Of a stretch of DNA of 64,000 nucleotides, positions 194-18,647 are shown piece by piece. The stretch is from positions 124,001-188,000 of the forward strand of contig NZ_JAHYSG010000002.1 of NCBI RefSeq assembly GCF_022095675.1, given 5' to 3'. Both the position numbers and the translations under genes were made by a program. The notes beneath the pieces were generated by a model that saw only the letters and a program-made list of their open reading frames with translations, was not told the origin of the DNA and made no database searches. Position 1 is the stretch's first letter. Every line of letters begins with the position of its first letter. The stretch is from Dactylosporangium sp. AC04546 (GTDB lineage Bacteria; Actinomycetota; Actinomycetes; Mycobacteriales; Micromonosporaceae).

Positions 194-1843
194 TCATCTC
201 CTGGCTCCAACCGGCCGGCCGAGGTACGGGTACCGGTAGTCGGTCGGCGGGACGAAGGTCTCCTTGATCGAGCGCGGCGAGGTCCAGCGCAGCAGGTTCA
301 CCGCGGCGCCGGCCTTGTCGTTGGTTCCGGACGCGCGGCCGCCGCCGAACGGCTGCTGGCCCACGACCGCACCGGTCGGCTTGTCGTTGATGTAGAAGTT
401 GCCGGCCGCGAAGCGCAGCTCGTGCTGCGCCCACGCGATCGCCCGGCGGTCCTGGGCGATGATCGAGCCGGTCAGGGCGTACGGCGCGATCGACTCCATC
501 CCGCGCACGACCGTCTCGTAGTCGGCGTCCTCGTAGACGTGGACGGCGAGGATGGGGCCGAAGTACTCGGTCGTGAACATCTGGTCGGTCGGGTCGGTGG
601 ACTCGACGACGGTCGGGTGCACGAAGTAGCCCACCGAGTCGTCGGTGTCGCCGCCGACGATCACGTCGAGCTGCTCCTGCCGCTTCGCGCGGGCGATCAC
701 GGCCTTGTGCCTGGCGAACGCCCGGTCGTCGATGACCGCGCCCATGAAGTTCGAGAAGGTTGCCGGGTCGCCGATGGTGATCGTCTCGATCTCGGCGAGC
801 AGTGAGTCCTTCATCTTCTTCCACACGGAGCGGGCGACGTACGCGCGCGAGGCCGCGGAGCACTTCTGGCCCTGGAACTCGAAGGCGCCGCGGATCATCG
901 CGGTGCGCACGACGTCGGGGTCGGCCGACGGGTGCGCGACGATGAAGTCCTTGCCGCCGGTCTCGCCCACGATGCGCGGGTAGGAGCGGTATCCCCCGAT
1001 GTTGCTGCCGACCTCGCGCCACAGGTGCTGGAAGGTCGGGGTCGAGCCGGTGAAGTGGATGCCGGCCAGGTCCGGGTGGGACAGTGCGACCTGCGAGACC
1101 TCGAGGCCGTCGCCGGGGAGCATGTTGATGACGCCCGGCGGCATGCCGGCCTCCTCGAGCAGCTCCATGGTCAGCGACGCGGCGAGCTGCTGGGTGGGCG
1201 ACGGCTTCCAGATCACCGTGTTGCCCATCAGTGCCGGGGCGGTGGGCAGGTTGCCGGCGATCGCGGTGAAGTTGAACGGCGTGATCGCGTAGACGAAGCC
1301 CTCCAGCGGGCGGTGGTCGGTGCGGTTCCACACGCCCGGGCTGTTCGCGATCGGCTGGTCTTGCAGGATCTCGCGGGCGTAGTGGACGTTGTAGCGCCAG
1401 AAGTCGATGAGCTCGCAGGCGGAGTCGATCTCGGCCTGGAACGGCGTCTTCGACTGGCCGAGCACGGTGGCGGCGTTCAGGCGCTGGCGCCACGGGCCGG
1501 CCAGCAGGTCCGCGGCCTTGAGTAGGATCGCGGCGCGGTCGTCGAAGTCGAGGTCGCGCCAGCCCGGCGCGGCGTCCGCCGCGGCCTTGATCGCGGCGCG
1601 CGCGTCGGCCTGCGTGGAGTTCTTCAGGGTGCCCAGCACGTGCTGATGGTCGTGCGGCTGAACGACCTGGATCTCGTTGCCGCCCCCCGCATCGCGGCGC
1701 CCGCCGATGTGGGCCTTGAGGTCCTTCTGCTGCTGCTCGAGCTTCTCGATCTCCGCGCGGAGGGCCTCCCGTTCGGGGGTGCCGGGCGCGTAGGTCAGGT
1801 TCGGCTCGTTGCTGGGAGCCGGAGGAGTCGTCACTGCGTCCAT
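194..1843 (-). CDS. pruA: L-glutamate gamma-semialdehyde (P5C) dehydrogenase
   Basis: This 549-residue NAD-dependent aldehyde dehydrogenase oxidises glutamate semialdehyde/P5C to glutamate, the last step of proline catabolism. The ALDH hallmarks are visible: GSTPT at about 266-270 in the nucleotide-binding fold, the general-base Glu at about 294 in IVGETGGKDF, and the nucleophilic Cys at about 328 in FQGQKCSA. Length and the charged coiled N-terminal segment (residues 25-45, EKLEQQQKDLK) fit the stand-alone PruA type. The gene follows proline dehydrogenase after a 29-bp gap on the same strand, so the two are almost certainly co-transcribed. Confidence 0.95.
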   Translation of the reverse strand: MDAVTTPPAPSNEPNLTYAPGTPEREALRAEIEKLEQQQKDLKAHIGGRRDAGGGNEIQVVQPHDHQHVLGTLKNSTQADARAAIKAAADAAPGWRDLDFDDRAAILLKAADLLAGPWRQRLNAATVLGQSKTPFQAEIDSACELIDFWRYNVHYAREILQDQPIANSPGVWNRTDHRPLEGFVYAITPFNFTAIAGNLPTAPALMGNTVIWKPSPTQQLAASLTMELLEEAGMPPGVINMLPGDGLEVSQVALSHPDLAGIHFTGSTPTFQHLWREVGSNIGGYRSYPRIVGETGGKDFIVAHPSADPDVVRTAMIRGAFEFQGQKCSAASRAYVARSVWKKMKDSLLAEIETITIGDPATFSNFMGAVIDDRAFARHKAVIARAKRQEQLDVIVGGDTDDSVGYFVHPTVVESTDPTDQMFTTEYFGPILAVHVYEDADYETVVRGMESIAPYALTGSIIAQDRRAIAWAQHELRFAAGNFYINDKPTGAVVGQQPFGGGRASGTNDKAGAAVNLLRWTSPRSIKETFVPPTDYRYPYLGRPVGARR

Positions 1844-1872
1844 GTCTGCATCCGTAGGTTGTGAAGGTTGAT

Positions 1873-2823
1873 TCAGCCGCGAGCCAGCGCTCGCAGAAAG
1901 AAGGTGAGGTTGGCGGGGCGCTCAGCGAGCCGGCGCATGAAGTAGCCGTACCAGTCGGTGCCGAACGGCACATAGATCCTGACCTGACACCCCTGCGTCG
2001 CGTACTCGTCTCGCAGTCTGCCGGCGACTCCATAGAGCATCTGGATCTCCCAGTCGCTGGCCGATCGGTCGTACCTCGCGGCGGCGGTGACCGCCTCGCG
2101 AAGCATGACGGGGTCGTGCGTCGCGATCATCGGATAGCAGGTCGACGCCATCAGGACGCGGAGCCCATGCGCGTAGGCCTCGTCGACCTCGGCCTTGCGC
2201 TGGTGAGCAACACCCTTGGGCTCCCGGTAAGCGCCCTTCACCAGACGTACCCGGACTCCTGACCGCGACAGTGCCGCCAGGTCGCTCGGCGTGCGCCGCA
2301 GATTCGCCTGCAGGACGGTCCCTGTCGTTGGGAACTCGGAGCGCAGCAGGCCTGCGATCTCCAAGGTGGAGTCCACAGTGGTGTGGTCCTCCATGTCCAA
2401 GGTGACCTGGCAGGCAACCGCTTCGGCGGCGACGCAGATCTCGCGCACGTGGCTGAGTGCGATCGTGTGGCCGTCTCCAGGGAGGGCCTGTCCGAGCGCC
2501 GAGAGCTTCACCGAGACCTCCGCGACTTCGGCCGCGCCGGCTTCGTGCATCCTGAGCAACAACGCCAGGTATCGATCACGTACCGCGCGCGCACCCGCGT
2601 GGTCGGTGACGTCCTCCCCGAGGAAGTCGAGCGTGGTCGTCAAGCCTCGTGCATGGAGGTGGCGAGCCGCTGTCACCGCCGCATCATCTTCCTCGCCGGC
2701 GACGAACCTGTTGACCACCTTTCGGGTGATCCCGTTCGCCTCGACCGCACTCCGCAGGCGTGTGCTGCGAGATGCACGGAGCAGGACCGGGCCGAGCACA
2801 TCAACTCCCTTCAGCGGCGCCAC
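1873..2823 (-). CDS. pruB: Proline dehydrogenase (monofunctional)
   Basis: This 316-residue FAD enzyme oxidises proline to P5C at the membrane surface, feeding pruA just downstream. Family motifs are visible: DMEDHTT in the middle of the barrel, LVKGAYREPKG carrying substrate and flavin contacts, and the C-terminal FGTDWYGYFMRRLAERPAN that closes the proline site. Length matches the short PutA-independent PRODH of actinobacteria. The ATG at 2823 is used here, but a GTG a few codons later would also fit the usual N-terminus. A 123-bp gap with an inverted repeat separates it from the PucR-type regulator upstream. Confidence 0.93.
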   Translation of the reverse strand: MAPLKGVDVLGPVLLRASRSTRLRSAVEANGITRKVVNRFVAGEEDDAAVTAARHLHARGLTTTLDFLGEDVTDHAGARAVRDRYLALLLRMHEAGAAEVAEVSVKLSALGQALPGDGHTIALSHVREICVAAEAVACQVTLDMEDHTTVDSTLEIAGLLRSEFPTTGTVLQANLRRTPSDLAALSRSGVRVRLVKGAYREPKGVAHQRKAEVDEAYAHGLRVLMASTCYPMIATHDPVMLREAVTAAARYDRSASDWEIQMLYGVAGRLRDEYATQGCQVRIYVPFGTDWYGYFMRRLAERPANLTFFLRALARG

Positions 2824-2928: not shown

Positions 2929-2946
2929 CGTCTGCTGCGACACGCC

Positions 2947-4089
2947 TCAGTCGCGACCGAGAAGAAACGGGGCCAGGCGGATCGCGAGGTGGAGCCGAAG
3001 TCTGTCGTCGCCGGATCCGAGGTCAAAACCCGTCTGTCGCTGCATCTGGTCGAGCCGGTGGTACACCGTCTGTCGGTGGATACCCAACCGATCCGCTGTT
3101 CGCGAGACGCTCCCCGCCTCGTCGAGAAAGACCCGCGTCGTCTCGAGCAGCTCGGCGGACGCGCTCGCGAGAAACTGGTCGACCTGCGCCGGGAACAGCG
3201 CCCATCGCAGATCCCGGTCGCGAGCCAGTCCGAGGAGGGACAGAGGTCCCAGATCGGTCCAGGACGTCACCGTTCCAGCTCCGCTTCGACGGGCCACCCG
3301 CAGGGCCACCCAGGCTCCGTCACGCGCCTTGGTGAGATCATCGAAGTTCGGGACAGTCGGCCCGATCCCGACGGTGGCCGGAGCGTGCCGCACCGACAGA
3401 CGTCGTCCGAGACCGAGCGCAGTCAGGATCTCGTCCAACCGCATGGCCGGGTGCACGGTGCCCGGCCGGGTGACCGCGGCGGCGACGCGGTCGTCCTCCC
3501 GTGCCCAGACGAGCCCGGCTCGCGTCGGACGGCTCACCAGCTGTTCCGGCAACCCCGGACAATCGACGAGGACGCAGGTGACAGGCTCGTCCGGCCGCAG
3601 GCCCGCGGCCGTCGCCATCTCCGTCGCGGCCCGGCGCGTGGTCTGCGGCCAGCCCTCGACGAGCGCGCGGTACAGCTCGTCGCGGTGCATCTGGCGCCGC
3701 TCTGCGAGCTCGAGCAGGGCAGCAGCGCTTTCGGCGATCCTCATCGCCTCCGGGAACAACGACTCGTCAATCGACCCGTCGGGGTCGGGCAGCCAGAAGA
3801 ACCCGTGCACGCGTTCAAAACGGCGCGCCGGGATGCAGACGCGAGGAAGGATGCCCCGCTCGTCATCGCCCGGCGTGCGAACCGGGTCGGTCGCCTCATG
3901 GATGCCCTGGCCGCCGAACCAGTCCCGGATCTCGGGCGTAGCGCCCCGCTCCAGGATCGAGCGTTGCCGCACCACGTCGACGTCCCGCTGCCCGGAGAAC
4001 GCGATGAGCTGCAGCTCCGCGTCCTCGAGCACGCACGGCGCCTGCAGCAACCTCGCCATCTCGTCCACCAGGTCGTCGAGCACAGTCAA
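2947..4089 (-). CDS. PucR-family transcriptional regulator
   Basis: This 380-residue protein has the PucR layout: a variable N-terminal sensory part, a GGDEF-like middle, and a C-terminal helix-turn-helix at about 325-360 (SVSRTADRLGIHRQTVYHRL) followed by a short conserved tail. In actinobacteria such regulators next to pruB/pruA activate proline catabolism in response to proline. It sits directly upstream of pruB on the same strand and 29 bp after the CehA-like gene, so it could be the sensor of pathway product for the whole locus. The DNA target is not proven; the inverted repeat at 2906-2928 is a candidate. Confidence 0.88.
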   Translation of the reverse strand: MTVLDDLVDEMARLLQAPCVLEDAELQLIAFSGQRDVDVVRQRSILERGATPEIRDWFGGQGIHEATDPVRTPGDDERGILPRVCIPARRFERVHGFFWLPDPDGSIDESLFPEAMRIAESAAALLELAERRQMHRDELYRALVEGWPQTTRRAATEMATAAGLRPDEPVTCVLVDCPGLPEQLVSRPTRAGLVWAREDDRVAAAVTRPGTVHPAMRLDEILTALGLGRRLSVRHAPATVGIGPTVPNFDDLTKARDGAWVALRVARRSGAGTVTSWTDLGPLSLLGLARDRDLRWALFPAQVDQFLASASAELLETTRVFLDEAGSVSRTADRLGIHRQTVYHRLDQMQRQTGFDLGSGDDRLRLHLAIRLAPFLLGRD

Positions 4090-4118: not shown

Positions 4119-6650
4119 TCAGGCCTGGGACCGGATCCGGGCCAGGAGGGCCGCTTCCGCTTCCAGGAGAGGACGCCGCAGGAAGTCGCGATGGCTGTGC
4201 TCACCGTGGTGATGGGTCACCGTCCCGGACGCGTGATAGCGCGGGACCTTGTCCACGTACGTCAGCGATCCCTCGACGAGCGTCAGCAGGTAGCGGGCGA
4301 CCCGATCGTCGTACCGCTCCCACGCGGAGCGCCCGCACGCCAGGTAGATCGGCGAGGAGTGCGCGAAGATCGGGCGGCGCCAGGCATCGTGGTGCCGAGG
4401 TCCGACGCAGCGCGCGGCGATCCACGAGTTCTCGGAGACCCTCACCTCCTCGACGATGGTCAGCCGCCGGCTTCCCGAGCCGCCGGTTCGGGCGACGACC
4501 CGCCCGTTCATCACGAGCTCCAGTGCGTCGATGGGGAGGGCGGACGATGCCGAAGTCTCGACAGTGACGGTGCCGGGCCCCGCAAGCGGCACGGTGTCAC
4601 CGATCTGGTGGCCGTCGACCGTCAGCGTGAGGAGCGCTCCCCCGCTGACGAACGTTCTCCCGCTCCGCAACGCCCGGAGCCAGTTGTCGTAGGTGAACTC
4701 GTCGTCGAGCTGCGCGTAGGTCCGGTAGAGGCCGACCGGCGTCTCGTTGTCCATCTTGTCCGTACCGCCGACGAGCGGCATCCGGTAGCCGCAGTTCAAG
4801 TAGCGGTAGTACTCGTCGATCGAGTCACCGAAATCGGGATCGATGATCTCGACCGCATCCGCCCGCCCGGTGACGATGAGCGATGCCGGCTCACCGTGTG
4901 GCAGCGGGAAGTGCGGCACGATCACCGTGCCGCCCTGCGCGTGGCACGCGTCTGCCCAGGCACTCTCGGTGACCTCGAGGGAGCCCCCGAGATCGGCCTC
5001 CGGCGGACCGTCGCTGCACCACGGCATCACCGGTCGTGTCAGGCCGAGCAACGTGAGGTGGCCGAGGAAGTGCTGCCGGTTCTCTTGACCGAAGTACACG
5101 ATGGTCCGGCCGTCGTCGCTGGTCATCGGGCGGCCGATGAACTCCTCGGTGCCGGCGAACATGTGACCCTGCTGGGTCACCAGCACGTTGACGACGTCGC
5201 AGTCCTCGCCCATCGCCTCGACGAGCGCACCGTGCGAGCTCAGGGCGTGCGCGTGCGGGTCACCGGACCACCAGCCCTGCTCCTTCATGTTCGTCCAACG
5301 CTTCAGCCGGAGGGTCAGCTCGCGCTGGCCGGGCTCGATTCGGACGGCCGCACGCAGCGGCTCGTACTCGAAGCCCCTGGCGACGTCCACGTGGACCTCC
5401 CCCCGGGGCAACCAGCCTTGACAGCTGCCGTCGATGTAGGCGTAGGGCACCTGTCCCAACCGGACGTCCGCGCCTACGTCCAGGAACCAGCTCGACAAGT
5501 CGTCGTTGATGTGGTTCGGGTGGCCGTGCGGCTGGTACGGCACGCCTTCGGGGGAGCGGAAGTGCACGCGGCATGGCACGGGGCGGCCCGTATCGTCGTC
5601 GAGCACGGTGACGTGCACCCAGTTGCGGCCGCTCTCCAGCAGTTCGACCCGCACCGGGCCGTCGGCCGCCGCCCCGCGCTCGACGTCGCTCCACCGTACC
5701 GAGCCCAGCGGCCGGTCGCCGCTCCGCACAGTGAGCGTCGCGGACGGCACAGCGGTCACGTGCCCATAGACCGGGCTGGTCCCGCGGCTCGGCTGCTGGG
5801 CAAGGTACGCCCGTTTCGCCTCGTCAAGCCGATCCACGGCATCCTGCGCAGGCAAGGGCTCGTTGCGCGCCTGCCCGAACCCCGCCATGGGATCACCCAG
5901 GAAGTCGGTGTTCGGCAGCGGCCAGACGTACGACGCCGCTCCCCGATCGACCTCGAGCTCCAAAGGAAGCCCGACCTCTCCGTCGACCACGACCCGGACG
6001 GGGAGCGCCGCCCGCCGAGCCAGCGGATACTCCGGGCCGCGTCCGAGCGTGATGCCGCCGACCAGGACTCGCGACTCGGTACCGCGCAGCACAATGCGAT
6101 CCAGCGGGGTTTCCGGCGACGGGTTCTCCCAGACCCACAGGTACCAATGGGCGCGAGGCGCGCGCTCACCTGCGGCCATCAGGTGGAAGTCGTAGGTCGC
6201 CATCTGCCGAGCGCCGTTGCCGCAGCGCTCGGCGCGATCGAGTAACGCGTCTTCCGTGTCCAGCACGCTCGCGTAGGGCACCCGACCCCACGGCGTCGGA
6301 ATGACCTGGACCTCAAACCCTCTCCGTATCGCGACCTGGTGTGAGCTGCCATCGGCGAGGACGAACTCGTAGGTGGCTACCGAGTGGCCCGCCGAGTCGA
6401 ACGCGTCGCTCGCCGCATTCAGGAGGCGATGCGCGACGATCACCTGACGTGCCGGCTCGCCGACCGCGATCCCGATGGCGTCGCCCTCCCCGAGCACCAG
6501 GGAGTCGGTGATCTCGAACGGCAGCCCCCGGAGCACCTGGGAGCCCACGGGCGATGTCGACCCGACCTCCCCCGCCGCCACGTTGCGGTGCGCCGACAGA
6601 TCCACAGGACGGTAGGGATCCACGGCAACTCCGTCGCCGGGGTGCGTCAC
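4119..6650 (-). CDS. CehA/McbA-like PHP-domain metallohydrolase
   Basis: This is an 843-residue protein. The first ~450 residues are beta-rich and not recognised. A PHP-type metallohydrolase domain follows, starting at the HxH metal pair of GDPHAHALSS (His466 and His468) and continuing through IVPHFPLPHGEP, EIIDPDFGD and PLVGGTDKMD. This is the arrangement of CehA/McbA carbaryl hydrolases and their many uncharacterised homologues, which cleave esters or amides. No signal peptide is visible. The ATG overlaps the stop of the ornithine cyclodeaminase homologue by 4 bp, so translation is coupled. The likely role is hydrolysis of an ester, carbamate or amide intermediate of the locus; the substrate is unknown. 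Confidence 0.75.
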   Translation of the reverse strand: MTHPGDGVAVDPYRPVDLSAHRNVAAGEVGSTSPVGSQVLRGLPFEITDSLVLGEGDAIGIAVGEPARQVIVAHRLLNAASDAFDSAGHSVATYEFVLADGSSHQVAIRRGFEVQVIPTPWGRVPYASVLDTEDALLDRAERCGNGARQMATYDFHLMAAGERAPRAHWYLWVWENPSPETPLDRIVLRGTESRVLVGGITLGRGPEYPLARRAALPVRVVVDGEVGLPLELEVDRGAASYVWPLPNTDFLGDPMAGFGQARNEPLPAQDAVDRLDEAKRAYLAQQPSRGTSPVYGHVTAVPSATLTVRSGDRPLGSVRWSDVERGAAADGPVRVELLESGRNWVHVTVLDDDTGRPVPCRVHFRSPEGVPYQPHGHPNHINDDLSSWFLDVGADVRLGQVPYAYIDGSCQGWLPRGEVHVDVARGFEYEPLRAAVRIEPGQRELTLRLKRWTNMKEQGWWSGDPHAHALSSHGALVEAMGEDCDVVNVLVTQQGHMFAGTEEFIGRPMTSDDGRTIVYFGQENRQHFLGHLTLLGLTRPVMPWCSDGPPEADLGGSLEVTESAWADACHAQGGTVIVPHFPLPHGEPASLIVTGRADAVEIIDPDFGDSIDEYYRYLNCGYRMPLVGGTDKMDNETPVGLYRTYAQLDDEFTYDNWLRALRSGRTFVSGGALLTLTVDGHQIGDTVPLAGPGTVTVETSASSALPIDALELVMNGRVVARTGGSGSRRLTIVEEVRVSENSWIAARCVGPRHHDAWRRPIFAHSSPIYLACGRSAWERYDDRVARYLLTLVEGSLTYVDKVPRYHASGTVTHHHGEHSHRDFLRRPLLEAEAALLARIRSQA

Positions 6651-7630
6651 GGCGCGGCGCTCGCGGTCGCCGACTGCTCTGTTCCGGCCGCCCCTGCTCG
6701 ACGTTCCGCGATGCGGGTCGCGACGAGGCGTGCCACGGCCCAGTCCTGCGGCGCGATCCCGACGCTCTTGAACACCGTTATCGGCGTCCGGGCAAAGGAA
6801 CCCCCCAGCGCTCGACCGATTGGGAGCAGGCGGTGCTCCGCGATGGCGCCGGCCGCGACGGCCTCGATGATCTCCCCGGCCTCGGACAGCGCGGCGACCG
6901 GGTCGTCCACGACCACGGTCGCCCGGGCCAGGAGCTCATTGGGCAACTCGCGCATCCCCGGTGTGAACGCGCCGATCGCGTTGACGTGAACTGTGGGTGG
7001 AACGGAGTCCACCTCGAACAGTTGCCGGCGGGACGTGGTCGCGCAGTTCACGATCTCCGCACCGGCCAGGGCACGCTGAGCGTCGGACGCAACTGAGACC
7101 GTCGCCTCCGGGATCGCGTGGCGAAGCCGGACCGCAAGTCGCTCCGCCTTGCTCGGGTCGAGATCGACGACCGCGACCCGGGCGAGGGGCCGCACCGCGT
7201 TCACCGCCATCACCTGATGGAATGCCTGGGCGCCGGCCCCGAACATCACCAGTTTGGTCGCGTCGGCGGGAGCCATCAGATCGGTCGCGACGCCGACCGC
7301 TGCGCCGGTACGCAAGGCCGTGGTGGCCTCGGCATCGATGATCAGGCTGCGGGCGTGCGCAAACTCGACCCAGGTCACAGTGCCGGCGATGGGGGGCACT
7401 CGCTCGAAGTTCAGGCTCAGCACCTTGACCACCGCAGTTCCGGTCGGAATGTGGCGAGTGGGCATGACGAGGAACTGGCCGCCACCGAGGTGCAGCCGGG
7501 TCGGCAGCTCGAACTTGCCATGTTCGAAGTCGACGAACGCATCACGGACGGCGTCGATGGCGTCCTTGATGCCGACAAGCCTGTGCACGTCGTCGTGGTC
7601 GACTGTCTCGAGTCGCATGCTTGTCTCCAT
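6647..7630 (-). CDS. Ornithine cyclodeaminase / mu-crystallin family protein
   Basis: This 327-residue NAD(P)-binding protein has the family's Rossmann loop MFGAGAQAFHQ at about 128-138. The substrate half holds the Lys of VVKVLSLNFE and the Arg in ALRTGAAVGVATD. True ornithine cyclodeaminases convert ornithine to proline and ammonia; homologues act as ketimine reductases or alanine dehydrogenases. Two facts favour a proline-forming role: pruB and pruA lie a few genes downstream on the same strand, and the gene is coupled by a 4-bp overlap to the CehA-like gene. Substrate specificity cannot be read from the sequence. Confidence 0.85.
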   Translation of the reverse strand: METSMRLETVDHDDVHRLVGIKDAIDAVRDAFVDFEHGKFELPTRLHLGGGQFLVMPTRHIPTGTAVVKVLSLNFERVPPIAGTVTWVEFAHARSLIIDAEATTALRTGAAVGVATDLMAPADATKLVMFGAGAQAFHQVMAVNAVRPLARVAVVDLDPSKAERLAVRLRHAIPEATVSVASDAQRALAGAEIVNCATTSRRQLFEVDSVPPTVHVNAIGAFTPGMRELPNELLARATVVVDDPVAALSEAGEIIEAVAAGAIAEHRLLPIGRALGGSFARTPITVFKSVGIAPQDWAVARLVATRIAERRAGAAGTEQSATASAAP

Positions 7631-7672: not shown

Positions 7673-8473
7673 CTACGCCTTGATGGCGGCGACTCGGTCC
7701 AGCAGCCGTGGAGACACTTCGGTCGTCGCCAACACCCGGCCCAGGGCACCGCGGAAGCGGCCGGAGAAGAAGTCCGCGTGAACGGGTCGCCCGGCCTCGA
7801 GCCAGCTCAGGTCGTCGATCTCGGACGGTGCCGGGCGGTAGTTGACCGCGGGCTCAGCCTCGACGGCGGTGAGGTCCGAGGACTGCGACACGTCACGGCT
7901 GATGACCTGCTCGAGGAGGACGGAGTCCGGCGCCTCGACGTCGGCGATCACGTGCAACAGCAGGGTCGGATTGCGCACGGCGAACGCGGGGTCGGCAACG
8001 CTCTCGTCGCCGACGATCACCGATGCCTCGTAGCGTGCGGTGGGGCAGGCGACCCTGCCGGTCATGGCGCGGCCCGTCTTCTGGACGTGCACCTCGGCCG
8101 CCTTGACCGGGAACCCCGCCATCTCGCGGCCCATCGACGCACTGAAGTCCTTGTTCTTGTAGCAATGCGCGTAGTAGCCGCCGTGGACGCCGCCGTAGGA
8201 GGCGGGAACGACCACGCCGAACACCGCGTACTGATCGCCGAACGTGTCGTTGTAGGGCGAGAAGCCGGTGAGCGTGGGGAAGGTGTAGAACTCCACCCAG
8301 GCGTGGCTCGTGACGAAGTCGAACGGGGTCGGCGCCAGCACGGCACGCACGGCGTCCTCGGGCAACTCGAGGAGCACCGAGAGCCCCAAGCAGTCACCCT
8401 CGTACGCGTTGTCCGTGGCGTAGAAGGGCGAATGCAGCGGAATGCTCGGGATGGATGTTGTGCGCGGCTTCAT
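7673..8473 (-). CDS. Acetoacetate decarboxylase-like protein
   Basis: This 266-residue protein belongs to the acetoacetate decarboxylase (ADC) superfamily, shown by the long beta-barrel pattern and GREMAGFPVKAAEV at about 115-128. In classical ADC this segment carries an adjacent Lys pair after the Pro, the first Lys forming the Schiff base. Here the pair reads Val123-Lys124, so either the second Lys serves or the chemistry differs. The ATG at 8473 is chosen because the protein then begins just after the stop of the asparaginase-like gene (8475) and gives the normal family length. It probably works on a keto acid or imine intermediate of the same pathway. Confidence 0.7.
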   Translation of the reverse strand: MKPRTTSIPSIPLHSPFYATDNAYEGDCLGLSVLLELPEDAVRAVLAPTPFDFVTSHAWVEFYTFPTLTGFSPYNDTFGDQYAVFGVVVPASYGGVHGGYYAHCYKNKDFSASMGREMAGFPVKAAEVHVQKTGRAMTGRVACPTARYEASVIVGDESVADPAFAVRNPTLLLHVIADVEAPDSVLLEQVISRDVSQSSDLTAVEAEPAVNYRPAPSEIDDLSWLEAGRPVHADFFSGRFRGALGRVLATTEVSPRLLDRVAAIKA

Positions 8474-8474
8474 G

Positions 8475-10848: not shown

Positions 10849-11054
10849 GACCGGCCTCCGTTGAGGATCCAGGTGAGGGCGGATTGGGGCTCGGAGTCGA
10901 GTTCCAGGTACGGCAGCGGAAGCGCCCGGAACTTCACCAGGCCCGCGCGCATGCTCACATGAGCTTCGTATGCCTGGCGCAGTCGTCGCTCCGACAGGGA
11001 TATCCCTTGATCGCGAGCCACGTCGGCGAAATGTTCTATCGACGGGAAATGCAC
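10845..11054 (-). CDS. Small AtzG-like protein, probable amidase partner
   Basis: This 69-residue protein starts at a GTG (11054) with a perfect GGAGG 6 nt upstream, and its TGA overlaps the GTG of the amidase. It reads as two helices (SIEHFADVARDQGISLSERR and following) and an extended tail ending in LTWILNGGRS. The size, helix-rich N-terminus, Pro-rich LPLPYLEL stretch and coupling to an amidase recall AtzG, the small subunit of the AtzE amidase complex, which itself resembles GatC. The likely role is to stabilise the amidase or complete its active site. Homology to AtzG is inferred from layout, not from an alignment. Confidence 0.65.
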   Translation of the reverse strand: MHFPSIEHFADVARDQGISLSERRLRQAYEAHVSMRAGLVKFRALPLPYLELDSEPQSALTWILNGGRS

Positions 11055-11113: not shown

Positions 11114-13165
11114 TCAGCCGCTCGCAGCAGCACCTTCGGGACGGGGTCCCGGCGTGGCCAACTGTTCGACGGGCAGGTGGCAACGTACGAACTTTCCCGG
11201 CAGGATCTCCCGGAGCTCCGGCTCGACGCGCTCGCATGTCCCGTCGGCGAGCTTTCGATGACACCTGGTTTGGAATACGCATCCCGAGGGCGGATCGGCC
11301 GGGTTGGGAATCTCGCCGGTCAGCCGGATACGGTCCACGTCGTTGCCGTCCATCGCCGACGCCGCGGACAGGAGGGCCTCGGTATACGGATGGTGCGGCC
11401 CGCCAAAAACGTCCTCCGCCGTTCCGTGCTCCATGACCCGCCCGAGGTACAGGACCACGATTCGGTCGGATACGTACCGGACCACGCCGAGATCGTGTGA
11501 AATGAAGACGTACGTCATGCCCTCCTTGGCCTGCAGGTCCACCAGCAGGTTGAGGATCGCGGCTTGAACCGAGACGTCCAGGGCCGATGTCGGTTCGTCG
11601 CACACGAGCACCCGCGGGGAACCGGCGAACGCCCGAGCAATCGCGACCCGCTGCTTCAGGCCACCGGAGAGTTGCGAGGGGCGCATCGACAGATGACGGT
11701 CCTCCATGCGGACGGAACCGACCACTTCAGCCAACCTGCCGTCAAGTTCCGCACCCTCCAGGCGCGCGAGCTTGCTGAGGGAACGGCTGATGATGTGACG
11801 GACCTTGTGCCGACGGTTGAGGGCGGAGTCCGGATTCTGAAAGACGATCTGCAGCAGACGCTTCTCCTCCGGTGTCCGGTCCCCCGCCTTCGCCCCAACT
11901 TGCCGCCCGGCGACCTCGACCACCGAACCTGGGTCCGCAGGCTCGAGACCGACCAGCAGGCGCGCGAGGGTCGACTTGCCGCACCCCGATTCCCCGACGA
12001 TGCCGAGCGTTTCTCCCGCGAACACATCAAGGTCGACGTCAACCAGGGCATGGATGCGCTCACCGTGCCTGCCCCGGTAGGTCTTCGAGGCTCCCCGCAC
12101 GCTGATCACGGGCTCACTCGATCCTGTGACGGCGTTCGTCACGAGCTCTGCCGTGGTCCACGGCAGTTCGCCGGCCGACGCATGATTGAAGCACCGCGAC
12201 GCGTGCCCTGCTTCCAGAGACAAGAGTGGGGGCATCTGGGTTCGGCACCGAGCGTCTGACAGACCGCATCGCGGCGCGTACACGCAGCCGGCATCGACGT
12301 CGCCTGCCCGCGGTAGAAAGCCGGGGATGGTGTCCAGGCGGTGCAGGTCCTTTCGCTGCCCCCGACGAGGCACGCACCGCAGCAGCCCCACGGTGTACGG
12401 ATGACGAGGGTTGTCAAACACCTGGTCGACAGACCCCTGCTCGACCATCTCACCCGCATACATGACGCCGACCCGATCGCACATCTTCGAGACAACGGCG
12501 AGGTTGTGACTGATCAAGAGCGTGGCCGTTCCGAGCTCCTCGCGCAGACCGGCGATCAGATCGAGGACCTCCGCCTCGACGGTGGCATCAAGAGCGGTGG
12601 TCGGCTCGTCCAGGATCAGCAGGGCCGGGTCGACCGAGATCGCCATGGCGATCACGATTCTTTGCAGCATCCCGCCCGACAGTTGATGCGGATAGGCCCG
12701 CATGACCCGTCCCGGGTCAGCGATATGAACCTTCTTGAGTGCGCTCTCCGCGCGATCGTAGGCTTCGCTGCTGCTCGCGCCCAGCAGTTCGAACGCTTCG
12801 GCAACCTGACGACCGACACGGAGCGACGGGTTCAGCGCCTTCCCGGGCTCCTGATACACCATCGAGATCGACTGTCGTCTGAGTTGCCGGAGGTCGCGCG
12901 ATCCCAGATCCAACATGTCACGACCATCCACCAGGATGCGACCCGCAACGATCCGGCCGTTTCGCGGCAGGTACCGGTTGATGGCGAGGGCAGCAGTCGA
13001 CTTCCCGCAACCGGACTCACCGACGAGGCCGAATGACTCCCCCTGGCCGATCGTGAAGTCGACTTCCCGAAGGGCCGGTCGATCCACTCCCCTGACCCGG
13101 TAGGCAACGCTGAGACGCTCTACCTTGAGCGCCGGCGACGCGTGGTCCGCTCCGTCTGCGTTCAT
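11114..13165 (-). CDS. Dipeptide/oligopeptide-type ABC transporter, fused double ATPase
   Basis: This 683-residue protein contains two complete ABC ATPases in tandem, equivalent to DppD fused to DppF. The first has Walker A GESGCGKST at 49-57, signature LSGGMLQR and Walker B LLILDEPTTALD, then the oligopeptide C-terminal extension with CVYAPRC. The second has its own GESGCGKST, LSGGLKQR and VLVCDEPTSALD and ends with CVFQTRCHRKL. The ATG at 13165 overlaps the stop of the permease gene by 4 bp. It powers the importer whose permeases and binding protein lie upstream on the same strand. Confidence 0.93.
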   Translation of the reverse strand: MNADGADHASPALKVERLSVAYRVRGVDRPALREVDFTIGQGESFGLVGESGCGKSTAALAINRYLPRNGRIVAGRILVDGRDMLDLGSRDLRQLRRQSISMVYQEPGKALNPSLRVGRQVAEAFELLGASSSEAYDRAESALKKVHIADPGRVMRAYPHQLSGGMLQRIVIAMAISVDPALLILDEPTTALDATVEAEVLDLIAGLREELGTATLLISHNLAVVSKMCDRVGVMYAGEMVEQGSVDQVFDNPRHPYTVGLLRCVPRRGQRKDLHRLDTIPGFLPRAGDVDAGCVYAPRCGLSDARCRTQMPPLLSLEAGHASRCFNHASAGELPWTTAELVTNAVTGSSEPVISVRGASKTYRGRHGERIHALVDVDLDVFAGETLGIVGESGCGKSTLARLLVGLEPADPGSVVEVAGRQVGAKAGDRTPEEKRLLQIVFQNPDSALNRRHKVRHIISRSLSKLARLEGAELDGRLAEVVGSVRMEDRHLSMRPSQLSGGLKQRVAIARAFAGSPRVLVCDEPTSALDVSVQAAILNLLVDLQAKEGMTYVFISHDLGVVRYVSDRIVVLYLGRVMEHGTAEDVFGGPHHPYTEALLSAASAMDGNDVDRIRLTGEIPNPADPPSGCVFQTRCHRKLADGTCERVEPELREILPGKFVRCHLPVEQLATPGPRPEGAAASG

Positions 13166-14043
13166 TCGTTCATCACCGTTTCGACTGCGTCTCCGATCAG
13201 GTTGACAGCTGCGATAAGCGAGGCGATCGCGAGCGCCGCGAAGAGCGCCTCCCACCAGTATCCGGCTGCCAGGAACTGATAGTTCGCCGCGATATCGGCG
13301 CCCCAGTCAGGCGTGGGCGGACGCACCCCGAAACCGAGAAATGAAAGGGTGGCCACCGTGAACACCGCGTAACCCAACCGAACGGTGAATTCAACGATGA
13401 TCGGTCCCATGACGTTTGGGAGGATCTCCACGAACATCACATGCAGCCCACTCTCACCTCGCAGATGGGCCGCGGCGACATAATCCAGGTCCCGCTCCGC
13501 CAGAACCGCCGCGCGAACCGTTCTTGAGCTCAGCACGCCGAACACCAGAGCGATGACCAGGATCAGGGTGAGCACTGAGGGACCGATGGCCGCGATCGCC
13601 ATGAAGGCCACGATCACCAGCGGCAGGGCAAGAAAGGCCTCGACCACGCGCCCCGCAATCATGTCCACGGGGCCTCGGTAGTAACCCTGCACCAGACCGA
13701 GGACGGTCCCGAGCAGAACCCCCAACAGGGCTGCACACGGGGCCACGACAAGAATCGTGCGCGCCCCTGCGATGATGCGCGAAAGAACGTCACGGCCGAG
13801 TGCGTCGGTCCCGAGCAGGTGCGCACTCGAGGGTGACTGGTTCGTGCCGAGGAGATCCTGGGCAAGGGGGTCATACGGGCGAAAGAGCTCGCCAAGCGTC
13901 GCGCAGGTGACCCAGGCCAGGAGGATTGCCACCCCGACCATGAAGCCTTGAGATCTGATCAGCATGGCGAATCGCTCACGCTTTTCGCTGGATGCTGCCG
14001 AGCGCCGTCCTCCTGCCCCGGGGCTGCTCGCCGCCACTGCCAT
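13162..14043 (-). CDS. ABC transporter permease, DppC/OppC type
   Basis: This 293-residue inner-membrane permease has the OppC/DppC features: a cytoplasmic N-terminus, the first membrane helix at about 33-52, the periplasm-facing HLLGTDALGRDVLSRII segment, and an EAA-like loop RDLDYVAAAHLRGESG that contacts the ATPase. Its ATG overlaps the stop of the DppB-type gene by one base (TGATG). It forms the channel together with that protein. Confidence 0.92.
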   Translation of the reverse strand: MAVAASSPGAGGRRSAASSEKRERFAMLIRSQGFMVGVAILLAWVTCATLGELFRPYDPLAQDLLGTNQSPSSAHLLGTDALGRDVLSRIIAGARTILVVAPCAALLGVLLGTVLGLVQGYYRGPVDMIAGRVVEAFLALPLVIVAFMAIAAIGPSVLTLILVIALVFGVLSSRTVRAAVLAERDLDYVAAAHLRGESGLHVMFVEILPNVMGPIIVEFTVRLGYAVFTVATLSFLGFGVRPPTPDWGADIAANYQFLAAGYWWEALFAALAIASLIAAVNLIGDAVETVMNE

Positions 14044-14993
14044 CACTCCACCCCCTCCAGACGGAGTCTCGGATTGAGGATTGTCGTCACGACGTCCGCC
14101 ACCAGCGCCGCCACGAGGTAGACCACACCGATGACCAGCACCCCGGCAACCAGCATCGGAAAGTCTTTTTGATTCCCTGCGTCGTAGATCAGCCTTCCGA
14201 GACCCGGGTAGTTGAACAGGGTCTCGATGACGACAAGCCCACCGATCAGGTTTCCCGTCTCGGTGGCAACGACCGCGATCGTCGGCAACATCGAATTTCT
14301 CAGCACGTGCCGAAAGAGCACCACCCGCGGCGGCAGTCCTTTCAACGTTGCGGTTCGCACGTAGTCGGACTCCAGCGCCTCGACCGTGCTCGCCCGAGCC
14401 ATCCTCGCGATGTACCCGAAGAGCATCAGCACGAGAGGGATCGCCGGCAGGATCAAGTGGCGCAGTTGAGTGAGTATGCCGGATCCCTCGGCAGCGCTGG
14501 CGGTCACCGGGAAAATCTTCCAGTGAATCGCGAAGACCACGATGAGTACTACGCCGGAGACAAACTGGGGAATCGTCACGAGCGTCAGTCCACCGGTGCT
14601 GATGATGCGGTCCAACAGCCGGCCCCGATGGAGCGCGGCCAGGACGCCACCGCAGATGGAGAGCGGCACCACGATCAAGAATGCGAGGCCCGCCAGCTGC
14701 AGCGATCGCCACAACGCGGGCAGAAGGAACGTAGACACCGGGGCTTGGTATTGATATGAGGTGCCCAGGTCGCCGTGCAGGCCCGTCACCCAGTGCCAGT
14801 ACTGCACCGGCAAGGGCTTGTCGAGACCCAACTGCTTGTCCATCTGGGCGATCGACTGCTCCGAGGCGAAGTTGCCGAGTATCGACCGACTCGGACTGCC
14901 CGGGAGGACCTGTCCCGCGACGAACACGATGACGCTCAACAGGAACAGGGTCAGCAGAGCAAGCGCGACGCGCTTCGCGAGATACCGGCCCAT
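14043..14993 (-). CDS. ABC transporter permease, DppB/OppB type
   Basis: This 316-residue permease starts MGRYLAKRVALALLTLFLLS, the usual DppB N-terminal membrane helix. It has a long extracytoplasmic loop after helix 1, the QYWHWVTGLHGDLGTS motif of the family, and an EAA-type loop ESDYVRTATLKGLP. It lies 46 bp downstream of the binding-protein gene and is coupled to the next permease. It imports peptide- or amide-like substrates with its partner. Confidence 0.92.
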   Translation of the reverse strand: MGRYLAKRVALALLTLFLLSVIVFVAGQVLPGSPSRSILGNFASEQSIAQMDKQLGLDKPLPVQYWHWVTGLHGDLGTSYQYQAPVSTFLLPALWRSLQLAGLAFLIVVPLSICGGVLAALHRGRLLDRIISTGGLTLVTIPQFVSGVVLIVVFAIHWKIFPVTASAAEGSGILTQLRHLILPAIPLVLMLFGYIARMARASTVEALESDYVRTATLKGLPPRVVLFRHVLRNSMLPTIAVVATETGNLIGGLVVIETLFNYPGLGRLIYDAGNQKDFPMLVAGVLVIGVVYLVAALVADVVTTILNPRLRLEGVE

Positions 14994-15039: not shown

Positions 15040-16719
15040 TCAACTCTTGCTTACCTTGTCCAGGTAGAGCTGCTGGCCCGCGGTCGACACGACGTCGAAG
15101 ACATTTGCACGACTCGCGCTCAGGAAGTCGTAGAAGTACGGGTAGATCACCGGGGTCTCGTCCAGGAGCAGCGCCTGAATCTTGCCCGCGAGCTCACGCT
15201 GCTTGGCCACGTCCACCGTGCCGAGATACTGCCGCGTCAGTGCGTTGTACTCCGGGTTGTCGAAGTGCGCCGCATTCCAGGAACCCTGCCCGACCTTCGC
15301 GTCGATCGACTGGAGTGGTGCCCGCAGGAACGTGCTCGGGCCAGGAACCGCTCCATAGTCGACGAGGCTCATGGCGCCATCCAGCCACGGCGACTTCCCG
15401 AAGACCGCGTCGCCGTAGTAGTCGGCGATGGTGAGGACGTTCAGCTTGATCTCGACGCCGATCTTTGCTGCAGATTCCGCAACGATCTGGGCGAACTGGG
15501 GCATCTCCTGCAACCGCTCGGTGTAGAGCTCTACGGAGAAGCCGCGCGGAACCCCAGCCTGAGCGAGTAGCTCCTTCGCCTTGTCGAGATTCCTTTCTCG
15601 TTGCGGGACGGTCTTGTCAGTCATCGGGAACGAGGGTGCAAACGGACTGTCGTTGCCTACCTGGGCGTTCCCCTTGAACAGGGCCGCGACGATCGCCTGC
15701 CGATCGAGGGTGAGCGCGATCGCTTGACGGACCGCCTTGTCCTTGAGCGGCGACTGGTCGCAGCGCATCGACAGTGCCCGGTGCGAGCTCCCCCGCACCT
15801 TGTTCACGTTGTACTGACCGTTGAGGAGCTGAGGACTGTTCGAGACCGTGAACTGCGCGAGAACATCGATCGCGCCCGCCTGGAGCGCTGCCGAGGCCGG
15901 CTGTTCGTCAGCGTAGAACACGATCTGGACGCTCTCCGGCAACGCCTGGGCACCCCAGTAGTGGGGGTTGCGGACGAAGGTGGCGCCGCTGCTCTGGTTG
16001 AAGGACTTCATCATGAACGGCCCGGTACCGATGAACGACTTCGCCCACTTGTCGTACTCAGTGTTCTTCGGCACGACAACCGCGTTGTAGTTGGCCTGCG
16101 ACACCGTCTCGGGAAAGGCCCCGTACGGTGCCTGAAGATGGAACTGCAGGGTTTCGCCATCGACCTTGACCACGCCCGAGGGGTCGAGCAGGCCGGCGAA
16201 CTTCGACAGTGCCCCGCTGGCATTGGCCTTGTCCGCGTGCGACTGATAGGTGTAGACGATGTCGTCGACGGTCATCGGCGAGCCATCGCTGAACTTGACG
16301 CCTTGGCGGATCTTGAACGTCCACACCGTAGCGTCGGCGTTGGCCTCCCAGCTCGATGCGAGCCAGGGCTGCGGCACGTTGTCGTTGTCGTAGAACACGA
16401 GGCCTTGCGAGACCTGATTCATCATCTGGATCCCGCCGATATCGATCACGGTCAGGGGATTGGGCGCGGCATTCGGTGCGATGCAACCGGCCTTGATGGT
16501 CGCGCCCGCCTTGCCTCGTCCGGGAGAGCTCGGCGTCCCGGCCGAGCCGCACGCCGAGAGGATGGCACCCATCGCCGGCATGCTGAGGCCCACCACAGCC
16601 CCCGTCCTGAGAAACGCGCGGCGCGACAGCCGCCCGGCGAGGAACTCATCAATCACGTGTTCGGAAACCAAGCCGCGCCCGCGACGGAGCGCGTCGAGCC
16701 GCTCGTGGTCGATGTTCAT
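15040..16719 (-). CDS. ABC transporter substrate-binding lipoprotein, family 5
   Basis: This 559-residue extracellular solute-binding protein of the DppA/OppA family is first in its operon. The N-terminus carries a twin-arginine-like RRAFLRTG, a hydrophobic stretch and a lipobox ILSACGS, so it is probably exported folded and lipid-anchored outside the membrane. The body shows typical landmarks such as WTFKIRQGVKFSDGSPMTVD and LTLDRQAIVAALFKGNAQ. A GAGAGG lies 8 nt before the ATG. It would select the compound brought in by the permeases and broken down by the amidase at the end of the operon. Confidence 0.93.
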   Translation of the reverse strand: MNIDHERLDALRRGRGLVSEHVIDEFLAGRLSRRAFLRTGAVVGLSMPAMGAILSACGSAGTPSSPGRGKAGATIKAGCIAPNAAPNPLTVIDIGGIQMMNQVSQGLVFYDNDNVPQPWLASSWEANADATVWTFKIRQGVKFSDGSPMTVDDIVYTYQSHADKANASGALSKFAGLLDPSGVVKVDGETLQFHLQAPYGAFPETVSQANYNAVVVPKNTEYDKWAKSFIGTGPFMMKSFNQSSGATFVRNPHYWGAQALPESVQIVFYADEQPASAALQAGAIDVLAQFTVSNSPQLLNGQYNVNKVRGSSHRALSMRCDQSPLKDKAVRQAIALTLDRQAIVAALFKGNAQVGNDSPFAPSFPMTDKTVPQRERNLDKAKELLAQAGVPRGFSVELYTERLQEMPQFAQIVAESAAKIGVEIKLNVLTIADYYGDAVFGKSPWLDGAMSLVDYGAVPGPSTFLRAPLQSIDAKVGQGSWNAAHFDNPEYNALTRQYLGTVDVAKQRELAGKIQALLLDETPVIYPYFYDFLSASRANVFDVVSTAGQQLYLDKVSKS

Positions 16720-16892: not shown

Positions 16893-16930
16893 CTTGACAC
16901 GACCTCATATGTACCACCTAAAATAGAACC
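16893..16930 (+). promoter_or_regulatory. Promoter/operator copy B (SDR-GntR unit)
   Basis: TTGACA at 16894-16899, a 19-bp spacer with CATATG at 16906-16911, and TAAAAT at 16919-16924. It is identical over 38 bp to copy A at 9412-9449, and the likeness continues over the next 10 bp with two mismatches, through GTG plus two codons. A GTG begins at 16932, 7 nt after the -10, so a leaderless transcript start is expected there. Confidence 0.8.
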
Positions 16931-16931
16931 T

Positions 16932-17060: not shown

Positions 17061-17089
17061 GGCCGAGCACGGCCGAGAAGGGAGCTTCG

Positions 17090-17854
17090 ATGGCAGGACG
17101 CCTGAGGTCCAAGACCGCCGTCGTGACGGGCGGCTGCTCAGGCATTGGACTGGCATCCGCGCTCAGGTTGGCCGCCGAGGGAGCGCGGGTCGTGATCGCT
17201 GACATCAACGATGATCGCGGCCATGAGCTGGCCTCCGAGTTCGAGCTCGTCTACATACACGCCGACGTCACCGACGCGGGGCAGGTCCGCGACCTGTTCG
17301 CCAGGACGCACGCGTCCCTCGGCTCGGTGGACGTGCTGTTCAACAACGCCGGTGTCGCCCCGCAACAGGACGGCTCAATCCTCGACGTCGACCTCGCCAC
17401 ATGGCGGCGCGTTCACGAGGTCAATCTCACGAGCGTCTTCCTCTGCTGCAAGGCAGCACTCCCCTACATGGTTCAACAGCGAAGTGGCTCGATCATCAAC
17501 AACTCGTCCGTGGTGGCCGTGATCGGCGCTGCCGACCAGATTTCCTACTCGGCTTCCAAGGGTGGCGTGCTGTCAATGTCCCGGGAACTCGCGGTCGAGT
17601 TCGCGAGCGCAGGCATCCGGGTGAACGCCATCTGCCCGGGTCCGGTGAGCACGCCGCTCCTTGAGCAATACTTCGCCAAAGAACCTGGACATGCACGGAA
17701 GAGGCTGGACCGGATCCCGCTCGGACGGTTCGCCCTGCCCGAGGAGGTAGCCAACGTCGTCGTCTTCCTTGCCTCGGACGAGTCAAGTTACATTACCGCT
17801 GCAACGCTCATGGTGGACGGAGGCGCCTCAGGCGTCTTCACAGGAGCAGCGTGA
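17090..17854 (+). CDS. SDR family oxidoreductase (classical)
   Basis: This 254-residue classical short-chain dehydrogenase has the cofactor loop TGGCSGIG near the N-terminus, NNAG in the middle, the catalytic Ser of INNSSVVAV and the YSASK pair, plus the C-terminal PGPVSTPLL and VDGGAS landmarks. The Asp of VVIADINDD favours NAD(H). A GGGAG lies 6-7 nt before the ATG. It is driven by promoter copy B and followed after 88 bp by the GntR gene. It probably oxidises a hydroxyl group in the pathway encoded on the other strand. Confidence 0.9.
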   Translation: MAGRLRSKTAVVTGGCSGIGLASALRLAAEGARVVIADINDDRGHELASEFELVYIHADVTDAGQVRDLFARTHASLGSVDVLFNNAGVAPQQDGSILDVDLATWRRVHEVNLTSVFLCCKAALPYMVQQRSGSIINNSSVVAVIGAADQISYSASKGGVLSMSRELAVEFASAGIRVNAICPGPVSTPLLEQYFAKEPGHARKRLDRIPLGRFALPEEVANVVVFLASDESSYITAATLMVDGGASGVFTGAA

Positions 17855-17942
17855 AGACGACGAACGCCTCGGGTGACGGACCGATAGATTGTGTCCACGA
17901 TTTCTCGAGGGTCGACGGCACAGGCCGGAAGGAAAGCTCCAC

Positions 17943-18647
17943 ATGAATTCGCCAGTTACACGGCCCGGCCGATGGTCGGGCGCTTCACCGTCGACGGGAG
18001 TGTTGGCCCGGTCAAGTCTGCGCGCCGACGCGACCGACCGACTGCGGGTGTGGATCACCACGGGTGAACTCGTGCAAGGCACCCTCTACACCGTCGGAGA
18101 ACTCGCCGCGCAGTTGGGGACCTCTCAGACCCCAGTACGTGAGGCGCTGATCCAGTTGGCGAACGAGGGTCTGGTCGACGTTGTCCGCAACCGCGGCTTT
18201 CGGGTCAGCGAGATCGCTGACGAGGACCTTGACGAGATCGTGAGCTGCCGACTGCTGCTCGAAGTACCGCTCGTCGCCCAGGTCGCCTCGATGGACGTCA
18301 CCGGGAGCATCGCAGATCTCCGACGACTCGCGGACGAGACGGTCGCGGCCGCCGAGCGCAAGGACATGGAGACCTTCCTGACGGCCGATCGCGAGTTTCA
18401 TCTCGCGCTGCTCAGGCTGGCGGGCAACCGGCGGGTGGTCGACATCGTCGCAAGGCTCCGGGATCAGACCCGTCTGTACGGCATCCGGTCCCTGGCCGAG
18501 GAGGACAACCTGTTGGCGAGTGCCAACGAACACGGGAAGATCTTGGATGCGGTCGAAGCGGGCGACGCTTCCGCCAGTGACCTGATGGAGCGGCACATCC
18601 GACACGCCCGCGGCATCTGGGCCGGTCGCGTGGAGGCGCAGGGGTAG
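17943..18647 (+). CDS. GntR-family regulator, FadR/FCD type
   Basis: This 234-residue protein has an N-terminal winged helix (LAAQLGTSQTPVREALIQLANEG at about 43-65) and an all-helical FCD domain with the metal-binding Asp/His pattern (DREFHLALLRLAGN, then ANEHGKILDAV and ERHIRHARG). The ATG at 17943 is chosen over an upstream in-frame ATG because GGAAGGAAAG lies just ahead of it. It is co-directional with the SDR and is the best candidate to bind the twin promoters at 9412-9449 and 16893-16930, responding to a small organic acid. Confidence 0.9.
   Translation: MNSPVTRPGRWSGASPSTGVLARSSLRADATDRLRVWITTGELVQGTLYTVGELAAQLGTSQTPVREALIQLANEGLVDVVRNRGFRVSEIADEDLDEIVSCRLLLEVPLVAQVASMDVTGSIADLRRLADETVAAAERKDMETFLTADREFHLALLRLAGNRRVVDIVARLRDQTRLYGIRSLAEEDNLLASANEHGKILDAVEAGDASASDLMERHIRHARGIWAGRVEAQG

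Follow-up and report, generated by a model that had tools for sequence, protein, structure and literature searches.

A candidate GntR-controlled cassette for uptake and degradation of an amide-bearing compound, probably acquired horizontally, in Dactylosporangium sp. AC04546

The window analyzed here, 64,000 nucleotides of Dactylosporangium sp. AC04546 (NCBI RefSeq assembly GCF_022095675.1, contig NZ_JAHYSG010000002.1, positions 124,001 to 188,000 of the forward strand), carries at its left end a run of transporter, hydrolase and oxidoreductase genes. A preliminary description had read them as a candidate pathway that could take an imported amide or lactam through proline to glutamate. The reading favored here, at somewhat better than even, is a mosaic and probably horizontally acquired cassette, controlled by a GntR-FCD regulator, for the uptake and degradation of an amide-bearing compound, ending in reduction of a ketimine. 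It draws on the gene content, on the co-conservation of a core in one second genome, on residue changes in the enzymes and on an operator-like sequence common to both genomes.

In the proposed scheme a peptide/nickel-class ABC importer would take up a small amide- or lactam-bearing compound and an asparaginase-fold enzyme would hydrolyze the amide. An acetoacetate decarboxylase (ADC)-fold enzyme would convert the product by decarboxylation, dehydration or aldol chemistry, without the usual Lys115 Schiff base. An enzyme of the ornithine cyclodeaminase (OCD) family would then reduce an alpha-imino acid, probably a cyclic ketimine, to an amino acid using NAD(P)H. An AtzG-amidase pair and a CehA hydrolase would be accessory hydrolases gained by this host. 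Should the reduction yield proline, in which case the OCD-family enzyme would be a pyrroline-2-carboxylate reductase, a PucR-pruBA unit would carry it to glutamate. The reactions and their order, the substrate, the binding of the regulator, the horizontal origin and the link to proline are what we infer.

Thirteen co-directional genes run on the minus strand from 16719 to 194, from the substrate-binding protein to P5C dehydrogenase, with spacings of at most 123 bp. On the plus strand, from 17090, follow a short-chain dehydrogenase and then the GntR-FCD regulator. The proteins were annotated by Pfam and NCBIfam model scores against curated cut-offs. The features are given below in minus-strand order and then plus-strand order, with identities to the relatives in L004, a locus in an Acidimicrobiaceae metagenome-assembled genome (MAG).

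15040..16719, minus: substrate-binding protein (SBP), family 5, NikA/DppA-like (PF00496, 284.2 bits; 60% in L004)
14043..14993, minus: OppB-type permease (PF00528/PF19300; 71% in L004)
13162..14049, minus, start approximate: OppC-type permease (PF00528; 70% in L004)
11114..13168, minus, start approximate: fused OppD-OppF ATPase, OppDF (two ABC_tran and two oligo_HPY stretches; 72% in L004)
10845..11054, minus: AtzG-like small protein, 69 aa, GTG start after GGAGG (4-bp overlap with the amidase start; 44-45% relatives in L034 and L035)
9466..10848, minus: AtzE/GatA-type amidase, 460 aa (PF01425, 319.4 bits; Lys-Ser-Ser signature motifs present)
9412..9449, minus: 38-bp promoter-like repeat, copy 1, identical to copy 2 and immediately before the GTG of the asparaginase-like gene; holds TGGTACATATGA at 9426-9437 (plus strand)
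8475..9410, minus: asparaginase-fold protein, 311 aa, GTG start (PF17763/PF00710; AlphaFold model, pLDDT 86.9)
7673..8473, minus: ADC-fold (ADC-like) protein, 266 aa (PF06314; fold search)
6647..7630, minus: OCD/mu-crystallin family oxidoreductase with ketimine-reductase-like residues (PF02423; alignments)
4119..6650, minus: CehA/McbA-type metallohydrolase (NF038032; start overlaps the OCD-family stop by 4 bp)
2947..4089, minus: PucR-type regulator, ahead of pruBA (PF13556 and PF17853)
1873..2823, minus: proline dehydrogenase, PRODH, pruB (PF01619, 118.6 bits)
194..1843, minus: P5C dehydrogenase, P5CDH, pruA (TIGR01236, 805.3 bits, cut-off 613.6)
16893..16930, plus: 38-bp promoter-like repeat, copy 2, between SBP and SDR-GntR; holds TGGTACATATGA (minus strand, 16905-16916)
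17090..17854, plus: short-chain dehydrogenase/reductase, SDR (PF13561, 242.1 bits; unmatched in L004)
17889..18647, plus: GntR-FCD regulator, candidate regulator of the cassette (PF07729/PF00392; 47% relative adjoining the importer in L004)

The amidase and asparaginase-like genes are 55 bp apart. Beyond them the genes lie close: 1 bp separates the asparaginase-like and ADC-like genes, 42 bp the ADC-like and OCD-family genes, 29 bp CehA and PucR, 123 bp PucR and PRODH, and 29 bp PRODH and P5CDH. The contiguous families of the preliminary description (importer, amidase, asparaginase-fold, ADC-fold, OCD/mu-crystallin, CehA, PRODH and P5CDH) were all borne out by Pfam and NCBIfam. Its gene list had omitted the PucR regulator between CehA and PRODH, and the SDR and GntR-FCD genes of the plus strand.

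Conserved core and candidate operator

The putative core, defined by the copy in L004, consists of the GntR regulator, the SBP-OppB-OppC-OppDF importer and the asparaginase-like, ADC-like and OCD-family genes. L004 comes from a 2.9-Mb assembly and was compared by tblastn at E 1e-5. Within 13 kb it matches the regulator and the four importer genes at the identities listed above, and the asparaginase-like, ADC-like and OCD-family genes at 59%, 73% and 67%. It was the sole genomic core comparator read, and the window's own genome may lie outside the contig collection that was searched. AtzG, amidase, CehA, PucR, PRODH, P5CDH and SDR were unmatched in L004, which on the OCD side is cut off by the end of its contig, in a MAG that may be incomplete. 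In the 20 kb beyond its other side the sole match was to GntR, at 31%, and the 9 matches to amidase relatives in the MAG assembly include none on C29, the contig of L004. The core genes had been thought to belong together, and for the importer, asparaginase-like, ADC-like and OCD-family genes their co-location with GntR in the MAG supports this. The co-conservation of the hydrolase block with pruBA or the cyclodeaminase, on which the preliminary description had staked its pathway, holds for the OCD-family gene and fails for pruBA. At L004 8736-9413 an IstB-type (IS21) gene separates the GntR gene from the asparaginase-like gene, which may point to mobility.

The locus is unusual, as had been suspected. 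Among 298 genomes of the order the asparaginase-like query matched the host alone, and in the genome contig collection it matched a single locus, L004. With the ADC profile, the only match among 396 genomes of the phylum was the host itself, and the only one among 395 genomes of the class to which the MAG belongs was that MAG. In a protein collection, 5 of the 13 close non-self asparaginase-like clusters pair with an ADC-like cluster on a contig of identical size (3787, 3498, 39777, 17743 and 6630 bases), an indirect form of linkage in which each cluster reports its longest contig only. The 39777-base contig also carries a 76% amidase, and an 11356-base contig carries a 51% asparaginase-like protein and a 44% amidase, both amidases being among the best 120 of 4063 amidase matches. 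A plasmid search returned one weak record for the asparaginase-like protein, 24 records for the ADC-like protein (identity 28-32% among the 20 listed) and 717 records for the OCD-family protein, all below 60% identity. Plasmid DNA searched with window positions 6700-9450 gave no match, nor did viral contigs searched with the ADC profile.

The two copies of the 38-bp sequence, with its TTGACA and TAAAAT boxes, are identical and inverted to each other, and it occurs nowhere else in the host assembly at up to 3 mismatches. The 12-mer inside it, TGGTACATATGA, has an exact count of 2 in the 13.0-Mb host assembly, both here, and of 1 in the MAG assembly, where it lies 43 bp before the asparaginase-like start in L004. 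Its reversed-pattern control has a count of 0 in both assemblies. These exact genome-wide counts, not shuffles, carry the weight. The shuffles are weak controls: 8 of 100 window shuffles reach 2 matches at up to 2 mismatches, and 49 of 200 L004 shuffles reach 1 match. A shared 12-mer arose in 4 of 5000 shuffles, an optimistic figure from single-base shuffles of 301 bases picked after the match had been seen.

TGGTACATATGA is likely an operator, judging from its placement and counts, and is a candidate site for binding by GntR. The shared TGGTACATATGA sequence is the strongest evidence that the GntR gene and the asparaginase-ADC-OCD unit form one regulon. The label "promoter-like" was given to the repeat by eye. 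A consensus sigma-70 promoter scan of positions 1-20000 found no site; the TTGACA and TAAAAT boxes are 19 nt apart, outside the spacing of the scan. The TAAAAT box ends 7 nt before the asparaginase-like GTG, a distance that would suit a leaderless transcript. A palindrome search of the intergenic stretches gave weak candidates only, with no match to the FCD consensus, and the inverted arrangement of the two 38-bp copies hid them from the direct-repeat search. It is very improbable that the genes are unrelated catabolic genes brought together by chance, with no joint pathway. Relatives of AtzG and the amidase (L034, L035) and of CehA (L036-L038) do occur in other settings, but the core stands together in a second, distant genome and the locus-unique 12-mer lies at corresponding places in both.

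Residues of the three core enzymes

The OCD-family protein belongs to the OCD/mu-crystallin superfamily, with a PF02423 match of 156.8 bits, the NAD(P) glycine motif GAGAQA and the Arg/Lys carboxylate-binding residues. Arg45 and Arg107 are retained; the Lys69 position aligns with a Lys of 6t3e and of alanine dehydrogenase and is two columns off in a three-row alignment. The protein scores under the cut-off of all 16 NCBIfam models that it matched, including those for AlaDH, BhcD, SbnB, LhpI and EutC. Against the OCD model NF005762 it scores 109.7 bits for a cut-off of 350, and the L004 protein 89 bits. At the columns of the catalytic Glu56 and Asp228 the window has Leu54 and Phe222 and L004 has Leu and Phe; the true OCD of L069, a locus in the same order (NF005762, 523.5 bits), has Glu and Asp. 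These columns were assigned through the L069 OCD and lysine cyclodeaminase, with the Pseudomonas putida OCD outside the alignment. According to PMC3497308 and PMC3840593, Asp228 of OCD contacts the leaving amine.

Ornithine cyclodeaminase identity was rejected on the model score together with the Leu and Phe at the Glu and Asp columns. The earlier assignment, on which a cyclodeaminase forms proline, was very probably wrong, and a family name taken at face value (OCD = proline) can thus yield a wrong pathway. That assignment belonged to a pathway in which the amide releases an ornithine- or proline-like unit, the OCD-family enzyme cyclodeaminates it to proline and pruBA yields glutamate. The genes are indeed co-directional over 16.5 kb, and a true OCD does lie near PucR-pruBA and the citrulline hydrolase CtlX in L069, so such an arrangement exists. 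But both acidic positions are missing from the window and L004 proteins, and the proteins annotated at the locus include no ornithine-producing family. This pathway is now scarcely credible.

The activity of the OCD-family enzyme is most likely reduction of a ketimine of the pyrroline-2-carboxylate type, on a substrate that is a prediction. The best PDB sequence match is the pyrroline-2-carboxylate reductase 6t3e, which has Leu and Val at the two acidic columns, and members of the superfamily serve as proline-ketimine reductases in catabolic clusters (PMC4113996). Ketimine reduction is favored on these grounds. The second column is Asp in archaeal alanine dehydrogenase and in lysine cyclodeaminase.

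A possibility to be taken seriously, though a minority one, is that the enzyme's product is not proline but, for example, pipecolate, an alanine-like or an N-alkyl amino acid, and that the core pathway ends there. The L004 core is without pruBA, and the AlaDH, BhcD, SbnB, LhpI and EutC models, all matched below cut-off, leave specificity open. On the other hand, archaeal alanine dehydrogenase has Asp at the position of Phe222 in the window, and the pruBA neighbor favors proline.

The asparaginase-fold protein matches PF17763 at 46.5 bits and PF00710 at 25.8 bits. Its AlphaFold model gave 294 PDB matches at E <= 0.001, and the best 50 listed are all asparaginases (rmsd 4.6-7.0, TM-score to the model 0.62-0.73). 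In type I/II L-asparaginase the two Thr and the Asp of the TD pair are, we assume, catalytic. The Thr of GGTI and the Thr of TGT are retained in the window protein; the Asp of the TD pair is replaced by Gly, here and in 11 of 15 aligned proteins, the other 4 having Asp (15 of 20 matches were aligned; P0015 and P0017-P0020 were excluded). No NCBIfam family was matched at E <= 0.01, and the L004 protein reaches 18-20 bits, far under the cut-offs. The fold is that of a type I/II L-asparaginase; the Thr/Thr/Asp set lacks its Asp, and an NCBIfam match is absent.

The AlphaFold model of the ADC-like protein has a pLDDT of 79.6, falling below 50 at residues 111-119 beside Lys124. The 24 PDB chains that a fold search with it found at E <= 0.001 are without exception ADC-superfamily proteins, MppR and aldolase-dehydratases among them. 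By comparison with 3bh2 the position of Lys115, presumably the Schiff-base lysine of acetoacetate decarboxylase, is Val123, and that of Lys116 is Lys124. The protein has the acetoacetate decarboxylase fold and lacks the lysine at the Lys115 position. The relatives agree: V or I stands at the Lys115 position in 15 of 16 proteins and the Lys116 equivalent is K in 16 of 16, the window included (16 of 19 matches were aligned; P0029, P0030 and P0038 were excluded). In these proteins Lys116 may have replaced Lys115, or the Schiff-base chemistry may have been dropped.

Accessory hydrolases, the proline unit and origin

The 69-aa AtzG-like protein, queried as an 81-aa frame, had no Pfam or NCBIfam match. 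It is coupled to the amidase as AtzG is: the small gene overlaps the amidase gene, and its relatives precede amidase relatives in L034 and L035, from two genomes of the order, where the pairs sit with other Opp importers and further amidases. The Lys-Ser-Ser motifs presumably have their amidase roles. The amidase scores below both AtzE models (251.4 against 425.75 for TIGR02715 and 267.3 against 461 for NF006631) and has relatives at E 1e-110 in 3 of 298 order genomes, its own included. In L035, positions 9280-19984 hold seven consecutive amidase matches after an Opp importer, the last reaching the end of the retrieved stretch. In the cyanuric acid operon of Pseudomonas sp. ADP and in its relatives, AtzG-AtzE pairs likewise couple a small protein to a GatA/AtzE-type amidase near ABC transporters (PMC6219798). 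Unlike that operon, the window has no AtzD, AtzH or AtzF among its annotated proteins, and its amidase is under the AtzE cut-offs.

The CehA/McbA protein exceeds its model cut-off (NF038032, 171.3 bits against 80) and has relatives at E 1e-40 in 4 of 298 order genomes, its own included. One relative, in L036, lies near an N-acetyltransferase, a phosphotransferase and a molybdopterin-domain enzyme; another, in L037, near a rhamnosidase and a sugar-type transporter; and a third, in L038, near an amino acid permease and a dimethylformamidase-like protein. The CehA_McbA domain is shared with the carbamate hydrolases of PMC8292978; the window copy differs in its setting, an operon-like series of genes that includes an OCD-family gene. 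The amidase, CehA and pruBA were rejected for now as members of the core, being unmatched in the single core comparator and found in other contexts elsewhere.

The PucR-pruBA genes form a recognizable proline catabolic unit, with a P5CDH equivalog, a PRODH domain and an adjacent PucR regulator. PRODH is present in 138 of 150 order genomes, its own included. P5CDH is next to PRODH in 27 of the 30 best PRODH loci, two of the other three lying at contig ends, and PucR is within about 1.5 kb in 14 of the 30, the window included. It is quite possible, not far short of even, that PucR-pruB-pruA is a bystander to the cassette, an ordinary unit for proline use served by its own regulator and by a promoter in the PucR-pruB gap; this would be compatible with the core as drawn here. 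The commonness of such units, the missing pruBA matches in L004 and the missing PRODH match in the MAG assembly point that way. Against it stand the low GC3 (G+C at third codon positions) of PRODH and PucR, which matches the cassette, the position of PucR shortly after CehA on the same strand, and another pruB and pruA elsewhere in the host. The latter are a PRODH (50% identical, contig 42) and a P5CDH (67%, contig 75), so the window pair is extra. Entry of the cassette product into proline oxidation is plausible.

L069, the closest parallel for this unit, has relatives of PucR (56%), PRODH (65%) and P5CDH (85%) with an OCD-family gene nearby. It differs in having a true OCD above cut-off and CtlX, and its 20 kb hold no importer, asparaginase-like, ADC-like, amidase or CehA matches. 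Its stretch 7231-9328, with the OCD and CtlX near PucR-pruBA, is likely a citrulline-ornithine-proline-glutamate locus in its own right.

Base composition bears on the origin of the cassette. The 14 genes from PRODH to GntR have a mean GC3 of 0.809. In the right flank 26 genes average 0.922 (p 1.5e-6), and in the left flank 11 genes average 0.876 (p 0.0016). The right flank was represented by filtered open reading frames (ORFs) of the window and the left flank by those of L025, where 11 of 16 were used; overlapping and short ORFs were excluded. The left flank is itself lower in GC3, so the border on that side is not sharp. GC3 is 0.814 for PRODH and 0.835 for PucR, so these two may have arrived with the cassette, and 0.962 for P5CDH, which looks native by its composition. 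Between pruB and pruA, where both GC3 and identity to L069 step up, there may be a boundary of the acquired DNA.

Several points weigh against the cassette as proposed. The core has one comparator only, and the absence of the amidase, CehA and pruBA from L004 may reflect the contig end or an incomplete MAG. PRODH had no match in a search of the whole MAG assembly, which disfavors proline as the core product. In the protein collection, two single-contig asparaginase-like clusters (62874 and 108037 bases) have no ADC relative on a contig of the same size, so the linkage either has exceptions or sometimes goes undetected. The pyrroline-2-carboxylate reductase models NF004793, NF005603 and NF045512 likewise give the OCD-family protein scores short of their cut-offs (158.2/322, 135.8/266 and 106.4/400, bits/cut-off), and retention of Lys116 without Lys115 is unexplained by the cassette. 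The GC3 of P5CDH is unlike the remaining cassette, and the flank genes were chosen by a codon-position filter that several cassette genes would fail, a possible bias. Finally, the host assembly (13.02 Mb, 348 contigs, completeness 99.75) has an estimated contamination of 11.54%.

Comparison with known systems and neighboring genes

Ectoine eut clusters combine an importer, hydrolases and the OCD-family EutC in one locus. The OCD-family protein of the window differs from EutC, scoring 89.2 against a cut-off of 471.65. The trans-3-hydroxy-L-proline pathway (PMC4113996) resembles the locus in that a ketimine reductase of the OCD superfamily is encoded in a catabolic cluster together with transporters, and the product of this reductase, proline, can enter PRODH/P5CDH. 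In contrast to that pathway, the window has no proline racemase-superfamily dehydratase among its annotated proteins and its LhpI score (NF045512) is under the cut-off; the asparaginase-like and ADC-like genes have no counterpart there. A search of the PMC literature, with subscription papers outside its scope, gave no paper that joined all five family terms; the one it did give, the haloarchaeal genome survey PMC3102087, joined four, ADC being absent. The pathway looks undescribed.

The boldest form of the proposal is that the TD-less asparaginase-fold, the Lys115-less ADC-fold and the OCD-family ketimine reductase, each of them re-purposed, act in turn on one imported amide or lactam, under a GntR operator unique to the locus, and that their product enters proline oxidation. 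Such a new route is rather unlikely as a whole. If true, three folds with misleading annotations (asparaginase, acetoacetate decarboxylase and ornithine cyclodeaminase) would make up a single pathway, coherent and rare. The locus also offers a small testable system, with one importer for ligand screening and one candidate operator for inducer screening.

Scans of the window for tRNA genes and Rfam families gave no matches. Further along the window an aconitase-family protein is encoded at 26714-29575 and a protein with SBD_N and NBD_C domains at 31284-32543, with ABC transporter genes nearby.

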